From Anaerolineae bacterium (lineage in GTDB: Bacteria > Chloroflexota > Anaerolineae > Aggregatilineales > Phototrophicaceae), in NCBI GenBank assembly GCA_030950085.1, contig JAUZRW010000039.1, forward strand, positions 1-64,000: a stretch of 64,000 nt of DNA, in the 5' to 3' direction. Shown here piece after piece: positions 28,323 to 47,502 of the stretch. The notes under the pieces are model-generated. The model saw only the letters and a list, made by a program, of their open reading frames with translations, searched no databases and was not told the DNA's origin. Each line of letters starts with the position of its first letter. Positions within the stretch are counted from its first letter, which is position 1. A program made the position numbers and the translations under genes.

Positions 28323-29618
28323 ATGAAAACAAAAACATCACGAATCACAGGATTCTACAAAAACACCTTAGACCAACGTATACACACCATTTCACAATGG
28401 GCAAATCTATCTAATACCGAGACTAACGTTCTTAGAAACATCCTCAGTTTATCTACTGAAGATGCTAGTCACATGGTTGAAAATGCAATTGGAACTTTCA
28501 GCTTACCTCTCGGTATCGGTACAAATTTTCTCATCAATAACACAGATTACCTCATACCAATGGCTATCGAAGAGCCTTCCGTTATAGCCGCAGTCAGCAA
28601 TGCAGCTAGATTATTTCGTGAAGGAGGTGGATTCACCACTCACAGCGACGAACCTATTATGATAGGACAAATCCAACTTCTTGATATCAACGATCCAGAG
28701 CAAGCTGTTCAAATCATCTGTGAACATAAGCATCAACTTATTGAGGAAGCCAATAGAGTCAGTGGCAGCATCGTCGCTAGAGGTGGTGGTGCTATAGATA
28801 TTGAAACACGAATTTTCACCGACACGCCTATTGGAAGCATGGTTATCATCCATCTACTCTATGATACTCGTGAAGCTATGGGAGCAAATGCTATCAATAC
28901 AGCCGTAGAACACCTTGCTCCCTTTATTGAAGAAATCACAGGTGGACGAGTCAATTTACGAATCCTAAGTAATTTGACCGACAAGCGTAAAGCCTACGCA
29001 GAGGGAATGATACCAGCCCAGATCCTTGCTCGTAATAATGTTTCTGGTAAGCAAGTCGTTCGTTCCATTGTAGAAGCTGGTATTTTCGCAGAGATTGACC
29101 CCTATCGTGCCACCACTCACAACAAAGGCATCATGAACGGCATAGATGCAGTTCTCATCGCTACAGGCAATGATTGGAGAGCCGTTGAAGCAGGTGTCCA
29201 TGCCTATGCTGCGCGTAGTGGCACTTATAGCAGTTTAAGCAAATGGTGGCAAGATGATGATGGCAATCTACGCGGCTCGATTGAACTTCCACTTGCAGTA
29301 GGCACTGTTGGAGGCGCAACACGAGTTCATCCGACTGCAAAAGTTGTCATGAAAATACTAGGTAATCCATCCTCACGCGAACTCGCCGAGATTATTGCTA
29401 CTGTTGGTCTCGCACAAAATCTTGGCGCACTACGCGCACTCGCAACAGAAGGTATTCAGCACGGACACATGCGAATGCACGCTCGGCAACTCGCTGTTGC
29501 CGCAGGTGCAAGTAACGAACAAGTAAGCCAAGTTGCCCACCTATTAGTTGAAGAAAATAAGATTCGCCTACAACGGGCAAAAGAAATCGTTGCAGAATTA
29601 CAGGATAAAAATCAATGA
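28323..29618 (+). CDS. mvaA: HMG-CoA reductase, class II
   Basis: 431 residues. It reduces HMG-CoA to mevalonate (or the reverse). Class II features: [12 protein letters not shown], and catalytic Glu83 in AIEEPSV, Lys268 in HNKGIMNG, Asp284 in [10 protein letters not shown] and His382 in GHMRMH, each within a residue of the Pseudomonas mevalonii numbering. GTVGGAT is also intact. Although class II enzymes were first known as degradative, the operon with HMG-CoA synthase points to biosynthesis here. The stop overlaps the next start by four bases (ATGA). Cofactor choice (NADH or NADPH) cannot be read. Confidence 0.94.
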
Positions 29619-30679
29619 CTACGAACTCATGGCTCATGCAACCTGACACATCTGTCGGGATAGTCGGATATGGCGCATACATTCCGCGTTATCGTTTAGC
29701 AGGACATGATATTGCTAGAGTCTGGACAAATGGACTCGGTACGTCACCTATTAAGGAAAAAGCAGTCGCTGGACTTGATGAAGATGTCATTACAATGTCA
29801 ATTGAAGCGGCGCGAAATGCACTAAAACGCGCACAGATTAACCCACAACATCTACGGGCTGTTTGGGTCGGTAGCGAGAGCCATCCTTATGCTGTCAAAC
29901 CCACTAGCACCATTGTCGCAGAAAGCATCGGTGCTGCCCCGAATATTCAAGCGGCTGATTGGGAATTTGCTTGCAAAGCTGGTACAGAGGCAATTCAAGC
30001 CTCAATTGGCTTAGTCGGAAGTGGCATGGGACAGTACGCGCTCAGTATTGGAATGGACACGGCACAGAGTCGTCCGAGCGATGCTTTGGAATATACAGCA
30101 GCTTCTGGTGGAGCAGCATTCATACTAGGTTCTGCGGATGAGGCGGTTGCTATTTATCAGGGAAGCTACAGTTTTGTGACCGACACTCCCGATTTTTGGC
30201 GACGTGCTGAACAAACATATCCTAGTCACGGCGACAGATTCACAGGCGAGCCTGCATATTTCAATCACACCTTATCGGCAGCAACACAGTTAATGGAAAT
30301 GATGGCTACGAAAGCGAGTGATTATACTCATGCTGTATTTCATCAGCCGAATGTCAAATTCCCAAGCCGTGCAGCGAAAATGTTAGGCTTTTCTCAAGAA
30401 CAAATCGCAACAGGCTTACTCGCTAACAATATCGGAAACGTATATTCCGGTTCATGTATGTTAGGTTTGACGGCAATATTGGATATCGCAAAGGCAGGAG
30501 ACCGTATTCTGATGATTAGTTATGGTAGTGGGGCAGGTTCCGATGCCTTCGATTTGCTAGTAACAGACAACATCGAATCGAAACGGCATTTAGCACCAAC
30601 AACACAAGATTACATTCAGCGTCGGACAAAAATTGATTATGCCACCTATACTCGCTATCGTGGAAAACTGAAAGCATGA
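29615..30679 (+). CDS. HMG-CoA synthase, archaeal type
   Basis: 354 residues, the compact archaeal length. It condenses acetyl-CoA with acetoacetyl-CoA. The catalytic triad is intact: Glu88 (VGSESHPY), Cys120 (FACKAGTEA) and His243 (FHQPNVKF). Translational coupling to mvaA by an ATGA overlap and to the thiolase-like gene by an 11-base gap indicates one operon. In archaea this enzyme forms a complex with thiolase and DUF35 and channels acetoacetyl-CoA; the same order is seen here. Confidence 0.93.
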
Positions 30680-30690
30680 GGTAAATGATA

Positions 30691-31845
30691 ATGACACAAA
30701 CAGCAATTGTTGGTATTGGCATGACTCCTGTAAGTGAGCATTGGGGTTTAAGCTTACGAGAATTAGCCGCCGAAGCCGCACAAAAGGCGCTTGAAGATGC
30801 TGGCTTAAATACAGTTGATGCAATTTATGTGGCAAATGCCTATGGCAGCACATTCAATGGGCAAACACATTTGGGAGCATTGATAGCAGACTATATCGGG
30901 CTAGATGGCATTGAGGCATATACTGTTGAAGCCGGAGATGCTTCGGGCGGAGCTGCTCTACGAACGGCACATATGGCTGTTTTATCTGGTCTTGTGAATA
31001 CAGCACTGGTTATCGGTGTAGAAAAAGCAACTGATATTGTAGGTGCTAGTCGTACAAAGGCACGAACGATAAGCCTTGATGCGGATTATGAGGTTATTCA
31101 CGGCGCTACCTTGCCTTCAATGGCTGCCTTGCTTATGCGTCGATATATGTATGAATATGGTTTAGAGCTTTCTGACTTTGAGGGGTTTAGTATTAATGCC
31201 CATGCCAATGGCAAACGAAATCAATATGCGATGTATCGCAATACGATTCGTGATGGAGCATTTGCACACGCGCCGATGGTTGCTGCGCCCGTCAATCTAT
31301 TCGATAGTGCGCCAGATGGCGATGGTGCGGCGACGATTGTTATTACTCGTCAAGATGTTGCCCAAGATTTAGTGCCGCAACCCATTACGATTGCTGCGAG
31401 TAGTGTCACAACTGATGCTTTTATGATTCAAGAACGTAAAGATATGTTGCATTTGACAGCCGTGCAATCTTCGGTACAGACAGCATTACAACAGGCGCAT
31501 CTGTCGCACCAAGAAATTGATTTGTTTGAACTTCACGATGGATTCACTATTTTAGCAGCATTATCCCTTGAAGCTGCTGGTTTTGCTAAACGCGGTGATG
31601 GTTGGAAGTTGGCAACAAACACGGGAATTGGTCTTGAAGGTGTTATTCCAATTAGTACTTTCGGCGGACTCAAGAGTCGAGGTAATCCCGCAGGAGCAAC
31701 GGGTGTTTATCAGGCTGTAGAAGCTACTTTGCAATTACGCGGTGATGCAGGTGAAAATCAAGTTAATAATGCAAAAATTGCCATGATTCAAAATATGGGC
31801 GGTCTTAGTAGTACAGTCGCGACACATATCTTGTGTATCGGATAG
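30691..31845 (+). CDS. Thiolase-like protein lacking catalytic Cys and His
   Basis: 384 residues from the ATG at 30691, which has GAGG nine bases upstream; an ATG at 30685 is too close to it. The fold matches archaeal/SCP2-type acetyl-CoA acetyltransferases along the whole length (SLRELAAEAAQKAL, GVEKATDI, LPSMAALLMRRYM, GGLKSRGNPAGATG). The nucleophile segment, normally VEAACASGG, reads VEAGDASGG, giving Asp83 for Cys. The GHPxGATG His is Asn332 (RGNPAGATG). The HDGF His282 is kept. Claisen chemistry by the usual mechanism should be impossible. Its place between HMG-CoA synthase and DUF35 suggests a structural or CoA-binding role in their complex. Confidence 0.9.
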   Translation: MTQTAIVGIGMTPVSEHWGLSLRELAAEAAQKALEDAGLNTVDAIYVANAYGSTFNGQTHLGALIADYIGLDGIEAYTVEAGDASGGAALRTAHMAVLSGLVNTALVIGVEKATDIVGASRTKARTISLDADYEVIHGATLPSMAALLMRRYMYEYGLELSDFEGFSINAHANGKRNQYAMYRNTIRDGAFAHAPMVAAPVNLFDSAPDGDGAATIVITRQDVAQDLVPQPITIAASSVTTDAFMIQERKDMLHLTAVQSSVQTALQQAHLSHQEIDLFELHDGFTILAALSLEAAGFAKRGDGWKLATNTGIGLEGVIPISTFGGLKSRGNPAGATGVYQAVEATLQLRGDAGENQVNNAKIAMIQNMGGLSSTVATHILCIG

Positions 31846-31973: not shown

Positions 31974-32144
31974 ATGCAAGTACCTCGTTTTTGGAGAATG
32001 AAAACACAACGCTATCGTCTAATAGGCGTGCGTTATAACGATGGTAAGCCTCAAATTGTGAATCGACCAATGATGACGAAACCAGACACTAATGCCGAAA
32101 AATTGGCTGAAACAAAGAACAAAGCCGAACAACCAGCAGCATAA
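31974..32144 (+). CDS. DUF35 N-terminal helix/zinc-ribbon half, cysteine-free
   Basis: 56 residues, with an AAGGA site ten bases upstream. VPRFWRMKTQRYRLIG is the conserved N-terminal helix of DUF35 acyl-CoA-associated proteins. In full-length members this is followed by a four-Cys rubredoxin-like ribbon, then an OB fold. Here the ribbon is shortened to about 35 polar residues without any Cys, ending in an Ala/Glu/Lys tail. The gene stops 13 bases before the OB-fold gene. I infer a split DUF35 whose first half still docks the thiolase/HMG-CoA synthase pair but no longer binds zinc. Confidence 0.7.
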   Translation: MQVPRFWRMKTQRYRLIGVRYNDGKPQIVNRPMMTKPDTNAEKLAETKNKAEQPAA

Positions 32145-32473: not shown

Positions 32474-32506
32474 GAAAAAACCACCCATGCACAGGTGGTT
32501 TTTATT
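32474..32506. terminator. Bidirectional terminator
   Basis: AAAACCACC and GGTGGTTTT form a perfect stem with an eight-base loop and A/T runs on both sides, between the convergent DUF35 and ABC ATPase genes. Confidence 0.9.
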
Positions 32507-42187: not shown

Positions 42188-43786
42188 ATGCAATACATCA
42201 GGCAAATAGCGACACTGCTGATTGTTGTACTGTTGACCAGTGCCTGTAGCATTCTTGATTCGTCAGCGCCACAATCAAACAATCGTATTGTGTATGGTCT
42301 GACTGAAAGTGTGACGGGAATTGACCCCCATCTCCATACATCCCAAGAACTCAGTATTATCTTGCGGCAGATTTATGAAACGCTGGTTTATAGACACCCC
42401 GAAACTCGTGAATTTGTGCCGGGCTTGGCGCAATCGTGGGAGATATCAGCAGATGGTCTTTCGTACACGTTCTATTTGCGTGAAGATGTTGTTTTTCATG
42501 ATGGAACAGCTTTTACGTCACAATCGGTTGCTGATAATTTACAACGTATCTTGAACCCAGAAATAGGGTCACAATATACTCGGCAATTACTCGGCCCGAT
42601 TGTCAGTTACCAAGTGTTAGATGCGTACTCTATCAAAATCAATTTAAGCCGTCCATTTGAACCCTTTCTTGATTCATTGAGTCAGGTCTATCTCAGTATT
42701 GCAAGTCCGACAGCTTTTAATCGCTATGCAGATACGCCTTTACGTTATCAATTTCATCAAGTTGGTACAGGTGCATTTGAATTGGTTGAATATGTCCCCG
42801 AAGATAGGATAGTGATTCGACGTAATCCTAATTACACATGGTATCCTAGCTTTTATAATCCACCGCCTGTAAATGCAGTTCAGGAAATTGAATTTCGTTT
42901 TTTCCGAGATGCTGAAGCGCGGCTGGCAGCACTTGAACAAGGAAACGTGCAAATTATGGGTGGTTTGTCGCCGATAGATGCCCGTAGCTTAAGCAATAAT
43001 TTAGATATCGTCGTGCTACCGACACCCATTCCGGGACAACCCTTACAGTTTTACTACAATACAGATTTCTCGCCGACTGACAATCTTGCGGTACGGCAAG
43101 CATTAAATTATGCCGCGAATCGCACATCTATTGCAGAAACGATATATGGAGGATTTTCGCCTGTTGCGTGGGGCCCACTGTCTGCGAATAGCCTTTACTA
43201 TAATCGGGGTGTACGGAATGTGTATGCGTACAATCTTCAACAAGCACAATCTTTACTGGCTCAGGCTGGATATATTGACGAAAACGGCGATGGCACTCTG
43301 GAAAAAGACGGGGAAATTTTATCTATCACGGTGCTTCATTCGCCAGATGATTTACTACCAAATGTTGCACAATTTTTGAAAGCGCAATGGGAAACAATCG
43401 GTATTCATGTTGAGCTGCGCCCTGTTCCCGGACAAAGCGCCGTATTAGAAGCTGCGGCAGAAGGCGACTATAACCTCATTGCCTTAGATACTTTTGGTCT
43501 TGACCCCTATATCCTCAATCAACATTTCATTAGTGCTGTGCCGCAAAATTGGTCGGGCTTCAATTCACCAGAACTTGACAATCTACTGCTTGAAGCCGAG
43601 CGAATTCGTGACCCAGATGAAAGACGGTTATCTTATGGTCGTGTACAAGCCATTATATTAGAACAATCTCTCATTTTGCCTGTCAGCGATAGAGTCGTTC
43701 TCAACGCTTTCACAGCAAATATTCAAGGTTTACGGTATGACCTATATGGTTCGCCAATATTGCATGATGTCAGTATCAATCGCTAG
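42188..43786 (+). CDS. ABC-type oligopeptide/nickel substrate-binding lipoprotein (family 5)
   Basis: 532 residues from the ATG at 42188, which has an AAAGG site and begins a lipoprotein signal with lipobox LTSAC. The frame is open from 42161. SBP_bac_5 features: GLAQSWEISADGLSYTFYLR, FHDGTAFTS, QVGTGAFELVEY and VRQALNYAANR. It probably binds peptides or other small solutes outside the membrane. No permease or ATPase is adjacent. The stop shares CTAG with the convergent IPK gene. Confidence 0.9.
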   Translation: MQYIRQIATLLIVVLLTSACSILDSSAPQSNNRIVYGLTESVTGIDPHLHTSQELSIILRQIYETLVYRHPETREFVPGLAQSWEISADGLSYTFYLREDVVFHDGTAFTSQSVADNLQRILNPEIGSQYTRQLLGPIVSYQVLDAYSIKINLSRPFEPFLDSLSQVYLSIASPTAFNRYADTPLRYQFHQVGTGAFELVEYVPEDRIVIRRNPNYTWYPSFYNPPPVNAVQEIEFRFFRDAEARLAALEQGNVQIMGGLSPIDARSLSNNLDIVVLPTPIPGQPLQFYYNTDFSPTDNLAVRQALNYAANRTSIAETIYGGFSPVAWGPLSANSLYYNRGVRNVYAYNLQQAQSLLAQAGYIDENGDGTLEKDGEILSITVLHSPDDLLPNVAQFLKAQWETIGIHVELRPVPGQSAVLEAAAEGDYNLIALDTFGLDPYILNQHFISAVPQNWSGFNSPELDNLLLEAERIRDPDERRLSYGRVQAIILEQSLILPVSDRVVLNAFTANIQGLRYDLYGSPILHDVSINR

Positions 43787-44571
43787 TTGACTTTGATAGT
43801 CGTGCCTTTTACTGGAACGCCCGTTAAAGCATCACGAATAATACCTCGCCGCGTGCCATTGATAATCTGAATCACAGGGTATGGTTCTCGTGATGCGAGT
43901 TTCAGCATATCTTGTACTTTGCTTAACATGCCACCTGTCACATCTACGCCGCCGGAAGCGCCCAATGCAGATTGATAATCTTGGAAATTAGCAGGCGTAA
44001 TAGTCTCAATTATATTTTGTCGATTGTCATATACGCCATCAACTTCACCCAATAAGATGATACGGTTGATAGGTAATTGCGATGCAAAATACGTAAAGAT
44101 TGTTTCGGTTGATACGATTGTTCCGCCGCGTACAGTATCGAAGGCGACATCACCATAGATAAGCGGAATGAGGTTATTCTCCAAAGCCCGTTCGACACTT
44201 CTTAGGCTCATTTGCTTGATAACACCATCTTCTGCAAGAATTGATGCAGAAGGTTGTATTCGTAGTGCTGGAATAGTTACCTTGTGTAGTTCTTTTGCGA
44301 CTAAATAATTCAGTTCTGCCGCGATAGTCGCTACTTTCGCAAAACCCACCCATTCGTCTGCCGACTGTACTCCCGTCATGGTGTTATATCGCGCTGCCTC
44401 AAAATGCCCAAACGAACCACTCCCATGCCCAATAATCAGTTTGAGTGTGGGTTGACTAGCTAGTGCAGCACTGATTTCAGCCGCTACCTGTGCCATGACA
44501 GTTTGCCGAAAAGTTGCCTGTTGATTTTTATCAGTAATCAGTGAGCCGCCAATTTTGAGCAAGGTTATCAT
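43783..44571 (-). CDS. Isopentenyl phosphate kinase
   Basis: 262 residues of the amino-acid-kinase fold. It phosphorylates isopentenyl phosphate to IPP. Characteristic features are LLKIGGSLITDK (Lys6), GHGSGSFGH with the catalytic His56 that defines IPKs, IPLIYGDVAFD, and GEVDGVYD near the ATP site. It overlaps the mevalonate kinase gene by four bases. With the decarboxylase across the divergent region, it completes an alternative mevalonate pathway of the kind described for Roseiflexus and archaea. Confidence 0.92.
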   Translation of the reverse strand: MITLLKIGGSLITDKNQQATFRQTVMAQVAAEISAALASQPTLKLIIGHGSGSFGHFEAARYNTMTGVQSADEWVGFAKVATIAAELNYLVAKELHKVTIPALRIQPSASILAEDGVIKQMSLRSVERALENNLIPLIYGDVAFDTVRGGTIVSTETIFTYFASQLPINRIILLGEVDGVYDNRQNIIETITPANFQDYQSALGASGGVDVTGGMLSKVQDMLKLASREPYPVIQIINGTRRGIIRDALTGVPVKGTTIKVN

Positions 44572-45497
44572 AAGTCACTCTTCGCAATGGTTGTTTCATA
44601 GACTTGTACTGCGCCTGCACCTAAAAGCGCCTGTTTTACTTGTGCTTTTGTGTCATCAGTCACCAAAGCAATCATATTACCACCCCGACCACCGCCGGAT
44701 AACTTTGCGCCGAGGGCACTCGCATCTTTCGCAGCTACGACTAAGGCATCTAATTCAGGCGATGATACCGTCAATTGTTGCAGTAGAGCATGATTATCAA
44801 ACATCAATTGCCCTAACCTCTGTATATCGCCATTCTGCATGGCTTGGCGTGCTGATTGTGCAATCCACCCAATTTTTTCGATGACGGGTTTGATATGCTC
44901 CGGCTTAAACTCAAATAATTTGCGAACATCGCCAACTGCAATTTTTGTTAGCGACGCTTTTCCTGTATTACCAATTAGCAGTATTAGTGGCTTTTCATTT
45001 GCAATATGCTGAATAGGCTGTTCTCGCACGAAGTAAATCGCTTCTTCATAGACAATCACTGTATTATCAATGCCGCTAGGTGTGCCATGATAGATTTTTT
45101 CGATTTCATAGACTAGCTTGTTGATTTCTTGGTTGGATAGATTATTCTGTGTTAGACCACATATTGCCCGAATAATAACAGTGCTAATTGCAGCGCCACT
45201 ACCCAGTCCACTCGCAATTGGAATATTGGATTGTACTATGATTTTCGCTTGGAGTGCCTTCAAATTGAGTTTTTTCAGCGTGAGGCGTGCTGTTTCTGCG
45301 AGGGGGTCATCGCCATCAAAATATATAATTTTATTATCTAAATCACGCGCAATGATGCTTAACTTATCACGACTAAACTCAGCATGGGCTTCGGCTCTTA
45401 GACTACTGATGGGAACAGCTATTGCAGCTTGTCCGTATACGACAGCATGTTCACCAAACAGAATGATTTTTGCAGGTGCGCTAACCTGAATCATCAC
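44568..45497 (-). CDS. mvk: Mevalonate kinase
   Basis: 309 residues, GHMP kinase family. N-terminal SAPAKIILFGEHAVVYG, the ATP loop PIASGLGSGAAIS, the catalytic Asp in HGTPSGIDNT, and C-terminal KLSGGGRGGNMIAL. It makes mevalonate 5-phosphate. It lies in an operon between the UbiA-type gene (3-base gap) and IPK (4-base overlap). GHMP paralogs are easily confused, but EHAVVYG and SGIDN support mevalonate kinase over phosphomevalonate kinase. Confidence 0.92.
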   Translation of the reverse strand: MMIQVSAPAKIILFGEHAVVYGQAAIAVPISSLRAEAHAEFSRDKLSIIARDLDNKIIYFDGDDPLAETARLTLKKLNLKALQAKIIVQSNIPIASGLGSGAAISTVIIRAICGLTQNNLSNQEINKLVYEIEKIYHGTPSGIDNTVIVYEEAIYFVREQPIQHIANEKPLILLIGNTGKASLTKIAVGDVRKLFEFKPEHIKPVIEKIGWIAQSARQAMQNGDIQRLGQLMFDNHALLQQLTVSSPELDALVVAAKDASALGAKLSGGGRGGNMIALVTDDTKAQVKQALLGAGAVQVYETTIAKSDL

Positions 45498-45500
45498 GTA

Positions 45501-46424
45501 TTAACTGCCGACTGGTAACAAGTATAGTAAAATAATAAACGATAAGCCCCATCCTACCATGGCTAGTTGTAATGGACGGTCACGGAGCAAGACTTCATCG
45601 GGGGCGCTGCCTTCACCTTTAACGTGCATCAGGTATAAATAGCGATATAAGCCATATAACACAAATGGGACAGTCAGTAAGGCGAGTTTAGTCCCACGAA
45701 AACTACCAATATCCGCCTCAATAGTATAGAGCAAATAAGCAATAAAGGTCGATGTCGTCACGAGGCGCATCATATCGTCAATTAGAGCCAGATTGTACTC
45801 TTTGAAAATAGGGCGTGTTTGCAACGCCTGTTCGCCGAGTGTCATAAGTTCTTGTCGCCGCTTGCCAACTGCCAAAAATAGGGCAAGTAGTCCTGAACAC
45901 GCATAGAGCCATGGCGAGAAATTCGCTACATCAATCACAACAACCCCTGCTAATACCCTGAGTAAAAAGCCTGATGTAACTGTCAGAACATCAATAATAA
46001 CGACATTTTTTAACCAGAATGAATACGCAATCTGGATGATAAGGTAGATTGCTAAAACCAGACTCAGTTCTTTATCGAAGAACCATGCAGCAATTAGGGT
46101 TGCTGTGGGAAGGATAACGGCAGCAACCTGTGCGAGTGTCTTTGGTAATTGACCTGCGGGTAGGGGGCGATTCTTCTTCTTCGGATGTTGGCGGTCTTTT
46201 TCGATATCCACCAAATCATTGATGATATACACCGTTCCCGACATAAGAATGAGCAAAACACAGGCGAAAATCACTCGTACAAGGGAATCTGAGTTCGTCA
46301 GTTGGCGGTCAAATATGATTGCCGGAAATACAAATAGAACATTTTTTATCCATTGTTTAGGGCGCATAGTACGGAGAAGCCCGATAAGTGCTTGCACACA
46401 AACTCCATTTTGCTCGTGAGACAA
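45501..46424 (-). CDS. UbiA-family prenyltransferase, decaprenyl-phosphate phosphoribosyltransferase-like
   Basis: 307 residues and about nine transmembrane helices. MRPKQWIKN and the first Asp motif NDLVDIEKDRQHP followed by KKNRPLPAG match UbiA proteins of the DPPR synthase type, as does the late APDEVLLRDRPL. Those enzymes transfer 5-phosphoribose from PRPP to a polyprenyl phosphate, the first step to arabinosyl or ribosyl donors. It is first in the operon with mevalonate kinase and IPK, so polyprenyl supply and use are linked. Confidence 0.85.
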   Translation of the reverse strand: MSHEQNGVCVQALIGLLRTMRPKQWIKNVLFVFPAIIFDRQLTNSDSLVRVIFACVLLILMSGTVYIINDLVDIEKDRQHPKKKNRPLPAGQLPKTLAQVAAVILPTATLIAAWFFDKELSLVLAIYLIIQIAYSFWLKNVVIIDVLTVTSGFLLRVLAGVVVIDVANFSPWLYACSGLLALFLAVGKRRQELMTLGEQALQTRPIFKEYNLALIDDMMRLVTTSTFIAYLLYTIEADIGSFRGTKLALLTVPFVLYGLYRYLYLMHVKGEGSAPDEVLLRDRPLQLAMVGWGLSFIILLYLLPVGS

Positions 46425-46490
46425 TTCTTAAAGGGCGTATTATAACGCAGTGAATACAGACAATCATCCCCTATATTCTCACAATTTTCT

Positions 46491-46499
46491 CGCTACAAT
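46491..46499 (+). promoter_or_regulatory. -10-like CGCTACAAT element
   Basis: TACAAT at 46494-46499, 32 bases before the decarboxylase start, the same element as upstream of 27080 and 42188. Confidence 0.35.
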
Positions 46500-46530
46500 G
46501 ACTACATTTAACTCGTTTTAAGGAGCAAAT

Positions 46531-47502
46531 ATGAGACAAGCGACAGCCCGCGCCCACTCCAACATTGCATTCATCAAATATTGGGGTAATCAAGATGATG
46601 ACCTGCGCCTCCCCGTTAATCCTTCTATTAGCATGAACCTTGATAACTTATATACTGATACGACAGTTTTATGGGATGATACCCTCGCATCAGATAGCTT
46701 GACCATTAATGGCGAATCGGCATCAGGTAAAGCATTAGAACGAGTTTCTAAGCACCTTGACAAGTTACGTAAACAATTGCAGATAAGCAGTCCAGCGCAA
46801 GTCCAATCTAAGAACAATTTCCCAATGGGTGCAGGTATCGCATCCTCAGCCTCCGCATTTGCAGCATTAACCCTCGCTGCCGTCACTGCTGCCGAAGTTG
46901 AACTATCGGAACGCGAACTATCAGCACTGGCACGCTTAGGTTCGGGGTCAGCATCGCGCTCTATCCCAGCCGGCTTTGTCGAATGGCATACTGGCAAGAC
47001 ACATGGCGAATCATTTGCGGAAACCGTCGTGCAAGCTAATTATTGGGATTTGATTGATGTTATTGCCATTGTCAGTGATGAACATAAACACACCACATCG
47101 CAAGCTGGGCATCCGACAGCAAAAACCAGTGATTTGCAAAATGCGCGAGTGGCAGGAGCAGCTCAGAGGCTTCAAATCTGTAAACAAGCCATTATAGACA
47201 GAGATTTTTCGACATTTACCGAAGTAGTCGAGTCGGATAGTAATCTGATGCACGCGGTTATGATGACCAGCCAACCGCCACTTTTTTATTGGAAGCCAAC
47301 CACACTAACTATTATGGAATCCATCCGAGATTGGCGTAGCGAAGGTCTAGCAGTCTGTTATACACTGGATGCGGGACCGAATGTCCATTGTATTTGCATT
47401 AGTAATGATGCTGATACTGTAAGAAATAGGTTGCAAACACTATCAGGTGTTATAGATGTTCGTGTGGCAAACGCCGGTGGTGCTGCCCATATTTTGCCTT
47501 AA
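46531..47502 (+). CDS. Mevalonate-phosphate decarboxylase (DMD homologue)
   Basis: 323 residues, GHMP fold. SNIAFIKYWG, NNFPMGAGIASSASAFAAL, GSGSASRS (Arg143) and the catalytic Asp280 in LDAGPNV identify the (di)phosphomevalonate decarboxylase family. The Lys after WG that contacts the substrate diphosphate in diphosphomevalonate decarboxylases is Asn20, and the Arg of the SSR motif is Gln191. With IPK encoded nearby and no phosphomevalonate kinase seen, the monophosphate is the likelier substrate. AGGAG precedes the ATG. It is divergent from the UbiA-MVK-IPK operon. Confidence 0.88.
   Translation: MRQATARAHSNIAFIKYWGNQDDDLRLPVNPSISMNLDNLYTDTTVLWDDTLASDSLTINGESASGKALERVSKHLDKLRKQLQISSPAQVQSKNNFPMGAGIASSASAFAALTLAAVTAAEVELSERELSALARLGSGSASRSIPAGFVEWHTGKTHGESFAETVVQANYWDLIDVIAIVSDEHKHTTSQAGHPTAKTSDLQNARVAGAAQRLQICKQAIIDRDFSTFTEVVESDSNLMHAVMMTSQPPLFYWKPTTLTIMESIRDWRSEGLAVCYTLDAGPNVHCICISNDADTVRNRLQTLSGVIDVRVANAGGAAHILP

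Follow-up and report, generated by a model that had tools for sequence, protein, structure and literature searches.

In archaea, thiolase, HMG-CoA synthase and a DUF35 protein form a complex that has been explained as a channelling device in which the unfavourable thiolase step is coupled to HMG-CoA synthase, the DUF35 component being one chain in which an N-terminal helix and a zinc ribbon precede the OB domain. In the complex of Methanothermococcus thermolithotrophicus (PDB 6ESQ) CoA is located at an interface formed by all three subunits, and the PhlABC acyltransferase of Pseudomonas protegens (PDB 5M3K) demonstrates that this architecture can keep a dead catalytic subunit, as PhlA, which is HMGS-like, is without Cys and Glu, whereas the thiolase-like subunit works (C88A/S replacement in PhlC abolishes activity) and the zinc ribbon is kept (PMC6392133). 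TLP1 of Mycobacterium smegmatis is a further thiolase-fold protein without the Cys, which binds CoA and has no thiolase activity (PMC3406046), although it is a monomer with an extra C-terminal domain for which no HMGS or DUF35 partner is described. The Ltp2/Sal steroid aldolases combine a thiolase fold having altered catalytic residues with DUF35, and use a Tyr in YDHF/YDCY, while in the thiolase-like protein ST0096 of Sulfolobus tokodaii (PDB 4YZO) the nucleophile is replaced (TSGSGG) and the His of the GHP motif is kept. A search of mainly open-access papers returned no description of a dead thiolase adjacent to HMG-CoA synthase.

The window analysed here, a stretch of 64,000 nucleotides from an Anaerolineae bacterium (contig JAUZRW010000039.1), harbours a biosynthetic cluster which specifies, in this order, HMG-CoA reductase, HMG-CoA synthase, a thiolase-fold protein lacking the catalytic Cys and His (pseudo-thiolase), a 56-residue ORF (ZR) and a 98-residue OB-domain ORF, followed by a hairpin (Table 1). 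The stop codon of the reductase gene overlaps the start of the synthase gene by 4 bases, and the synthase, which matches 6esq_I with E=8.6e-129, has intact catalytic residues (Glu88, Cys120, His243 and Asn275); this Glu/Cys/His/Asn set was invariant in 166 aligned rows (131 distinct sequences), 143 of which have a dead thiolase as partner. Genes for isopentenyl phosphate kinase, mevalonate kinase, a UbiA-type prenyltransferase and mevalonate decarboxylase are situated 12-17 kb from the HMG-CoA genes in the same window. As the two kinases and the decarboxylase are present, and as ispG of the alternative isoprenoid pathway was not found in this genome (97% complete), mevalonate is probably its only isoprenoid route.

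Table 1. Features of the HMG-CoA gene cluster and of the further mevalonate pathway genes in the window.
Feature	Position	Strand	Evidence
HMG-CoA reductase, first gene of the cluster	28323..29618	+	TIGR00532, 420.7 bits (cut-off 259.95)
HMG-CoA synthase, archaeal type	29615..30679	+	NF003274, 541 bits (cut-off 244); TIGR00748, 531 bits (cut-off 353)
Pseudo-thiolase (thiolase fold, no catalytic Cys or His)	30691..31845	+	ORF, alignments, AlphaFold, fold match
Asp83 at the nucleophile position (codon GAT)	30937..30939	+	Alignment
Asn332 at the GHP histidine position (codon AAT)	31684..31686	+	Alignment
Zn-less ribbon protein (ZR), 56 residues, putative remnant of the DUF35 N-terminal helix and rubredoxin-like ribbon	31974..32144	+	34 homologues
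Stand-alone DUF35 OB domain (third subunit), 98 residues	32158..32454	+	PF01796, E=7e-21; aligns to 6esq_E residues 43-128
Terminator-like hairpin closing the cluster	32476..32503	+	10-pair stem and T tract; consensus match only
Isopentenyl phosphate kinase, mevalonate kinase and mevalonate decarboxylase, with a UbiA-type prenyltransferase gene between	43783..47502		NF040647, TIGR00549 and TIGR01240 over cut-off

The pseudo-thiolase ORF is uninterrupted, with an alternative upstream ATG at position 30685, and its closest sequence in the PDB is thiolase PFC_04095 of Pyrococcus furiosus (7YVY; E=2.4e-101, approximately 45% identity), while it matches the M. thermolithotrophicus thiolase of 6ESQ with E=1.4e-67. 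Alignment to both places Asp83 on the Cys of VEAACASGG and Asn332 on the His of GHP, residues which are present in PFC_04095 and, as Cys85 and the His, in the 6ESQ thiolase. A first-pass annotation of this DNA had claimed just these two substitutions within an otherwise conserved fold and operon position, and had proposed alignment with archaeal thiolases and Chloroflexota homologues as a check; codons and alignments bear out the substitutions and reveal no usable Cys or His at the active site, and the gene lies directly after that of HMG-CoA synthase. Profile matches (PF22691, E=4.9e-41; PF00108, E=7.9e-14) cover a full-length thiolase fold, although curated thiolase cut-offs were missed (NF053570, 321 bits versus 600; NF004720, 393.7 versus 420). 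The fold is predicted to be kept by an AlphaFold model with a mean pLDDT of 95.1, for which 6esq_A, the archaeal thiolase subunit, was the best full-length match by TM-score (TM 0.97, 1.3 A); ST0096, a member of the same family, gave a TM-score of 0.87.

No replacement nucleophile was visible, as the best cysteine column is kept in at most 14 of the 79 rows of the clade described below, and the sole cysteine of the window protein, C382 at the C-terminus, was rejected as an alternative catalytic residue since it is not kept in relatives. Position 284 (the 'HDCF' position, which is the second Cys of 6ESQ) is Gly within the HDGF motif at 282-285, and was likewise rejected as a third lost catalytic residue, as Ala occurs there in 7YVY and nearly all live relatives. 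Neighbouring genera share the pattern at 60-72% protein identity, and in a separate collection 56 of 68 readable thiolases adjacent to HMG-CoA synthase also lack the Cys, which indicates that the Asp83 and Asn332 substitutions are neither an assembly error nor due to chance.

That collection, a non-random one since ranking was by resemblance to a synthase of the Chloroflexia type, contains 12 thiolases with the Cys, all 12 also having the His, and among the 56 Cys-less ones the nucleophile is replaced by Gly in 33, Asp in 13, Glu in 9 and Ser in 1. Examples of named organisms with the dead form are Herpetosiphon llansteffanensis, Candidatus Chloroploca asiatica, Leptolinea tardivitalis and Thermanaerothrix daxensis, as well as genomes of Roseiflexus and Chloroflexus. 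Throughout 61 genomes of the same family and order the synthase-adjacent gene was dead in every legible case. The live paralogues, which share 48-52% identity with the window protein, are located away from the synthase; at least seven of these genomes carry a dead and a live family member together. In a tree of 118 proteins from which the catalytic columns had been removed, 79 nucleophile-less proteins, the window protein among them, group in a single clade (SH-aLRT 97) next to live paralogues, with Gly (38), Asp (28), Glu (12) or Ser (1), and in no instance Cys, at the nucleophile site. This clade spans Anaerolineae-like groups, Chloroflexaceae, Roseiflexaceae and Herpetosiphonaceae, and HMG-CoA synthase adjoins the dead gene in nearly all of its members. 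Two further sets of dead proteins sit among live ones. A single origin of all 82 dead rows was not rejected by the AU test (p=0.233); placement of L146, which shares 73% identity with a live relative, in the main dead clade was rejected (AU p=0.0006), so that a single origin of all dead copies was dropped and at least two independent losses of the nucleophile are indicated, a separate loss in L210/L186 being unproven. Genomes of Chloroflexota were surveyed, archaea being represented by PDB entries, and in most examined mevalonate-using Chloroflexota the HMGS-adjacent thiolase appears, from its residues, to be dead.

The dead thiolases are under purifying selection after the catalytic loss. Their dN/dS values, obtained from close dead pairs other than the window protein, which has no relative close enough for dS, were mostly 0.03-0.25, the same range as for live thiolases and for the neighbouring synthases. 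Within the dead clade E80, S85, G86, H171, N173, D283, G325, G326, K328, R330, G331, G335 and A336 are fixed, and positions 113, 128, 141, 282, 284, 327 and 334 on the pocket side are relaxed, while the GHP position carries N, D, F, H, R or Y, with His kept in 6 of 79 rows. The nucleophile site is not free, as only Gly, Asp, Glu and Ser occur, a restriction that may reflect backbone strain at the turn or a residual role of the acid.

A thiolase of this family accompanied the synthase in every genome sampled. All 99 synthase-bearing genomes among 400 of the phylum possess a thiolase of the pseudo-thiolase family as compared to 10 of 301 synthase-less ones, a difference for which a formal p-value is inflated by relatedness, and among 61 relatives every synthase-bearing genome (54/54) has a dead or live family member, while the near-complete genomes G006 and G014 are without both synthase and family thiolase. 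In one subgroup (f8; G043, G049, G054 and G059) the dead gene lies apart from that of the synthase. Genome G008 has lost the dead gene, keeps the synthase and DUF35 pieces and has an intact paralogue elsewhere, and that particular dead protein thus seems replaceable. At the G008 synthase locus (L104, 3560-6466), where the ribbon and OB proteins are kept without the dead thiolase, an apparent Gfo/Idh-type oxidoreductase gene lies between; L105 has a comparable gene after the synthase.

The DUF35 component is altered as well. Judged from the predicted proteins, it has been split into two genes and is without its zinc ribbon, since the 56-residue ORF, which is preceded by AAGGA, contains no Cys where DUF35 has a Cys4 ribbon, and the OB domain resides on a separate chain. 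The ORF nevertheless presents the helix/ribbon pattern M-Q-[IV]-x-R-x-W-R...R-Y-R-L-x-G, and its 34 homologues share an M-x-x-x-x-x-W-R...Y...G frame, several keeping four zinc cysteines; pN/pS is about 0.28, and about 20 genomes of the family have a homologue in the equivalent position. An AlphaFold model of ZR was uninformative (pLDDT 62, pTM 0.17). Several related lineages have, in addition to a complete DUF35, a separate short ZR in which the four zinc cysteines persist (L108, L112), while in genomes of Chloroflexaceae, Roseiflexaceae and Herpetosiphonaceae type DUF35 is fused but mostly Zn-less. In a sample of named genomes two CxxC pairs were present in DUF35 at 12 of 12 live-thiolase loci, and at dead-thiolase loci they were present in 21 and absent in 14, no DUF35 being detected nearby in a further 21. 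The homologue alignment thereby portrays a conserved protein of 50-60 residues, apparently derived from the DUF35 ribbon, whose zinc cysteines are present in only part of the lineages.

Additional Cys-less proteins of thiolase fold were encountered. A second one in the genome under study (contig C72, L002:638-1840, minus strand; VEGGGATG, ELYDSY, GAPVGATG) resembles the Sal/Ltp2 aldolase type, and beside it lies a DUF35 gene with an intact zinc ribbon (L002:1-582, minus strand). Another thiolase-like paralogue without the Cys, in genome G044 (L067, 4532-5764; ENGPASGG), keeps GHP and is located away from the synthase.

Compared with the archaeal complex, the locus has the same three components, a thiolase of the same fold and an intact synthase active site, as known here from genes and a single-chain model, but its thiolase is dead, and its DUF35 consists of a Zn-less ribbon protein and a bare OB domain rather than of one protein with a zinc ribbon. 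By analogy with that complex, the most economical reading would be that the synthase still needs a thiolase-fold subunit for its CoA site and for assembly, and on the sequence evidence we consider it probable that the pseudo-thiolase is a catalytically dead scaffold retained for the sake of this CoA site. It would be unable to form an acyl-enzyme, would associate physically with the synthase and the two DUF35 parts, and would contribute to the CoA site or seal the former tunnel, with acetoacetyl-CoA presumably being supplied by one of the cell's classical thiolases. Because the archaeal CoA interface is built from synthase, thiolase and DUF35 together, dropping the thiolase gene would be expected to deprive the synthase of its CoA site. 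For the Asp and Glu lineages a more speculative and rather doubtful extension is that the dead thiolase has acquired a new active or gating role, in which the acid at the former nucleophile position would shut the old tunnel and direct externally made acetoacetyl-CoA into the synthase; the two-enzyme channel would then have become a complex with a single working enzyme, the coenzyme site of which relies on a dead one. The first-pass annotation had likewise viewed the thiolase as a non-catalytic subunit, which the residues, the clade-wide loss and the relaxed pocket strongly support, and its retention as synthase partner agrees with operon position, co-occurrence and purifying selection, while the function that it proposed for the subunit, to hold the complex or to shield the CoA tunnel, is a putative one. 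It had also suggested that acetoacetyl-CoA comes from another thiolase and that an intact one be sought, and the genome indeed encodes four thiolases of the classical type in which the Cys, NEAF, GHP and C-terminal Cys motifs are all intact, consistent with such a source. That the state appears to be phylum-wide and to have arisen more than once goes beyond its observation, and the altered DUF35 had gone unseen.

Could the acidic or Gly pocket instead perform another acyl-CoA reaction, such as hydrolysis, decarboxylation or an aldol reaction as in Ltp2/Sal? Asp or Glu occupies the nucleophile site in 40 of 79 rows, four residue types occur overall, related Cys-less family members are aldolases (PMC12329534), and the genome carries the aldolase-like paralogue on C72; however, the commonest residue at this site is Gly and the rest of the pocket, including 282, 284 and 332, varies within the clade, so that a new enzyme is unlikely. 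An aldolase of Ltp2/Sal type was rejected, as HDGF at 282-285 lacks the YDxF/YDxY motif (PMC12329534), the Tyr of which corresponds to His282 here and is found in only 4 of 79 rows. Thiolase activity by means of other residues or substrate assistance is highly improbable, despite an operon position that is that of the first enzyme of the pathway, given that C382 is not conserved and that both PhlC C88A/S and the Cys-less TLP1 are inactive.

The presence of dead and intact members in at least seven relatives and in several Anaerolineae-like genomes could point to a regulatory role in which the dead protein shares an oligomer with a live paralogue of SCP2 type; this is very unlikely, since in the genome studied and in most relatives the dead protein is the sole representative of the subfamily, their other thiolases being of the distant classical type or aldolase-like. 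Loss of both catalytic residues, a relaxed pocket and an altered DUF35 partner would also fit a decaying gene carried along in the operon, but the gene is full length in dozens of genomes, the clade is long-lived and extends across classes, and the 99/99 co-occurrence and low dN/dS stand against it, such that decay is scarcely credible and is largely refuted by selection.

The scaffold reading has consequences for how the archaeal-type complex is understood. A dead thiolase combined with a live synthase is the mirror image of PhlABC, where it was the synthase-like subunit that died. A lineage in which thiolase chemistry was dropped and the subunit kept would mean that channelling and the building of the CoA site are separable, and renders the role in the CoA site directly testable. 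For annotation it implies that the role of first enzyme in the mevalonate pathway can usually not be filled by a Chloroflexota 'acetyl-CoA acetyltransferase' whose gene adjoins that of HMG-CoA synthase, a warning that covers lineages including Roseiflexus, Chloroflexus, Herpetosiphon, Leptolinea and Thermanaerothrix genomes.
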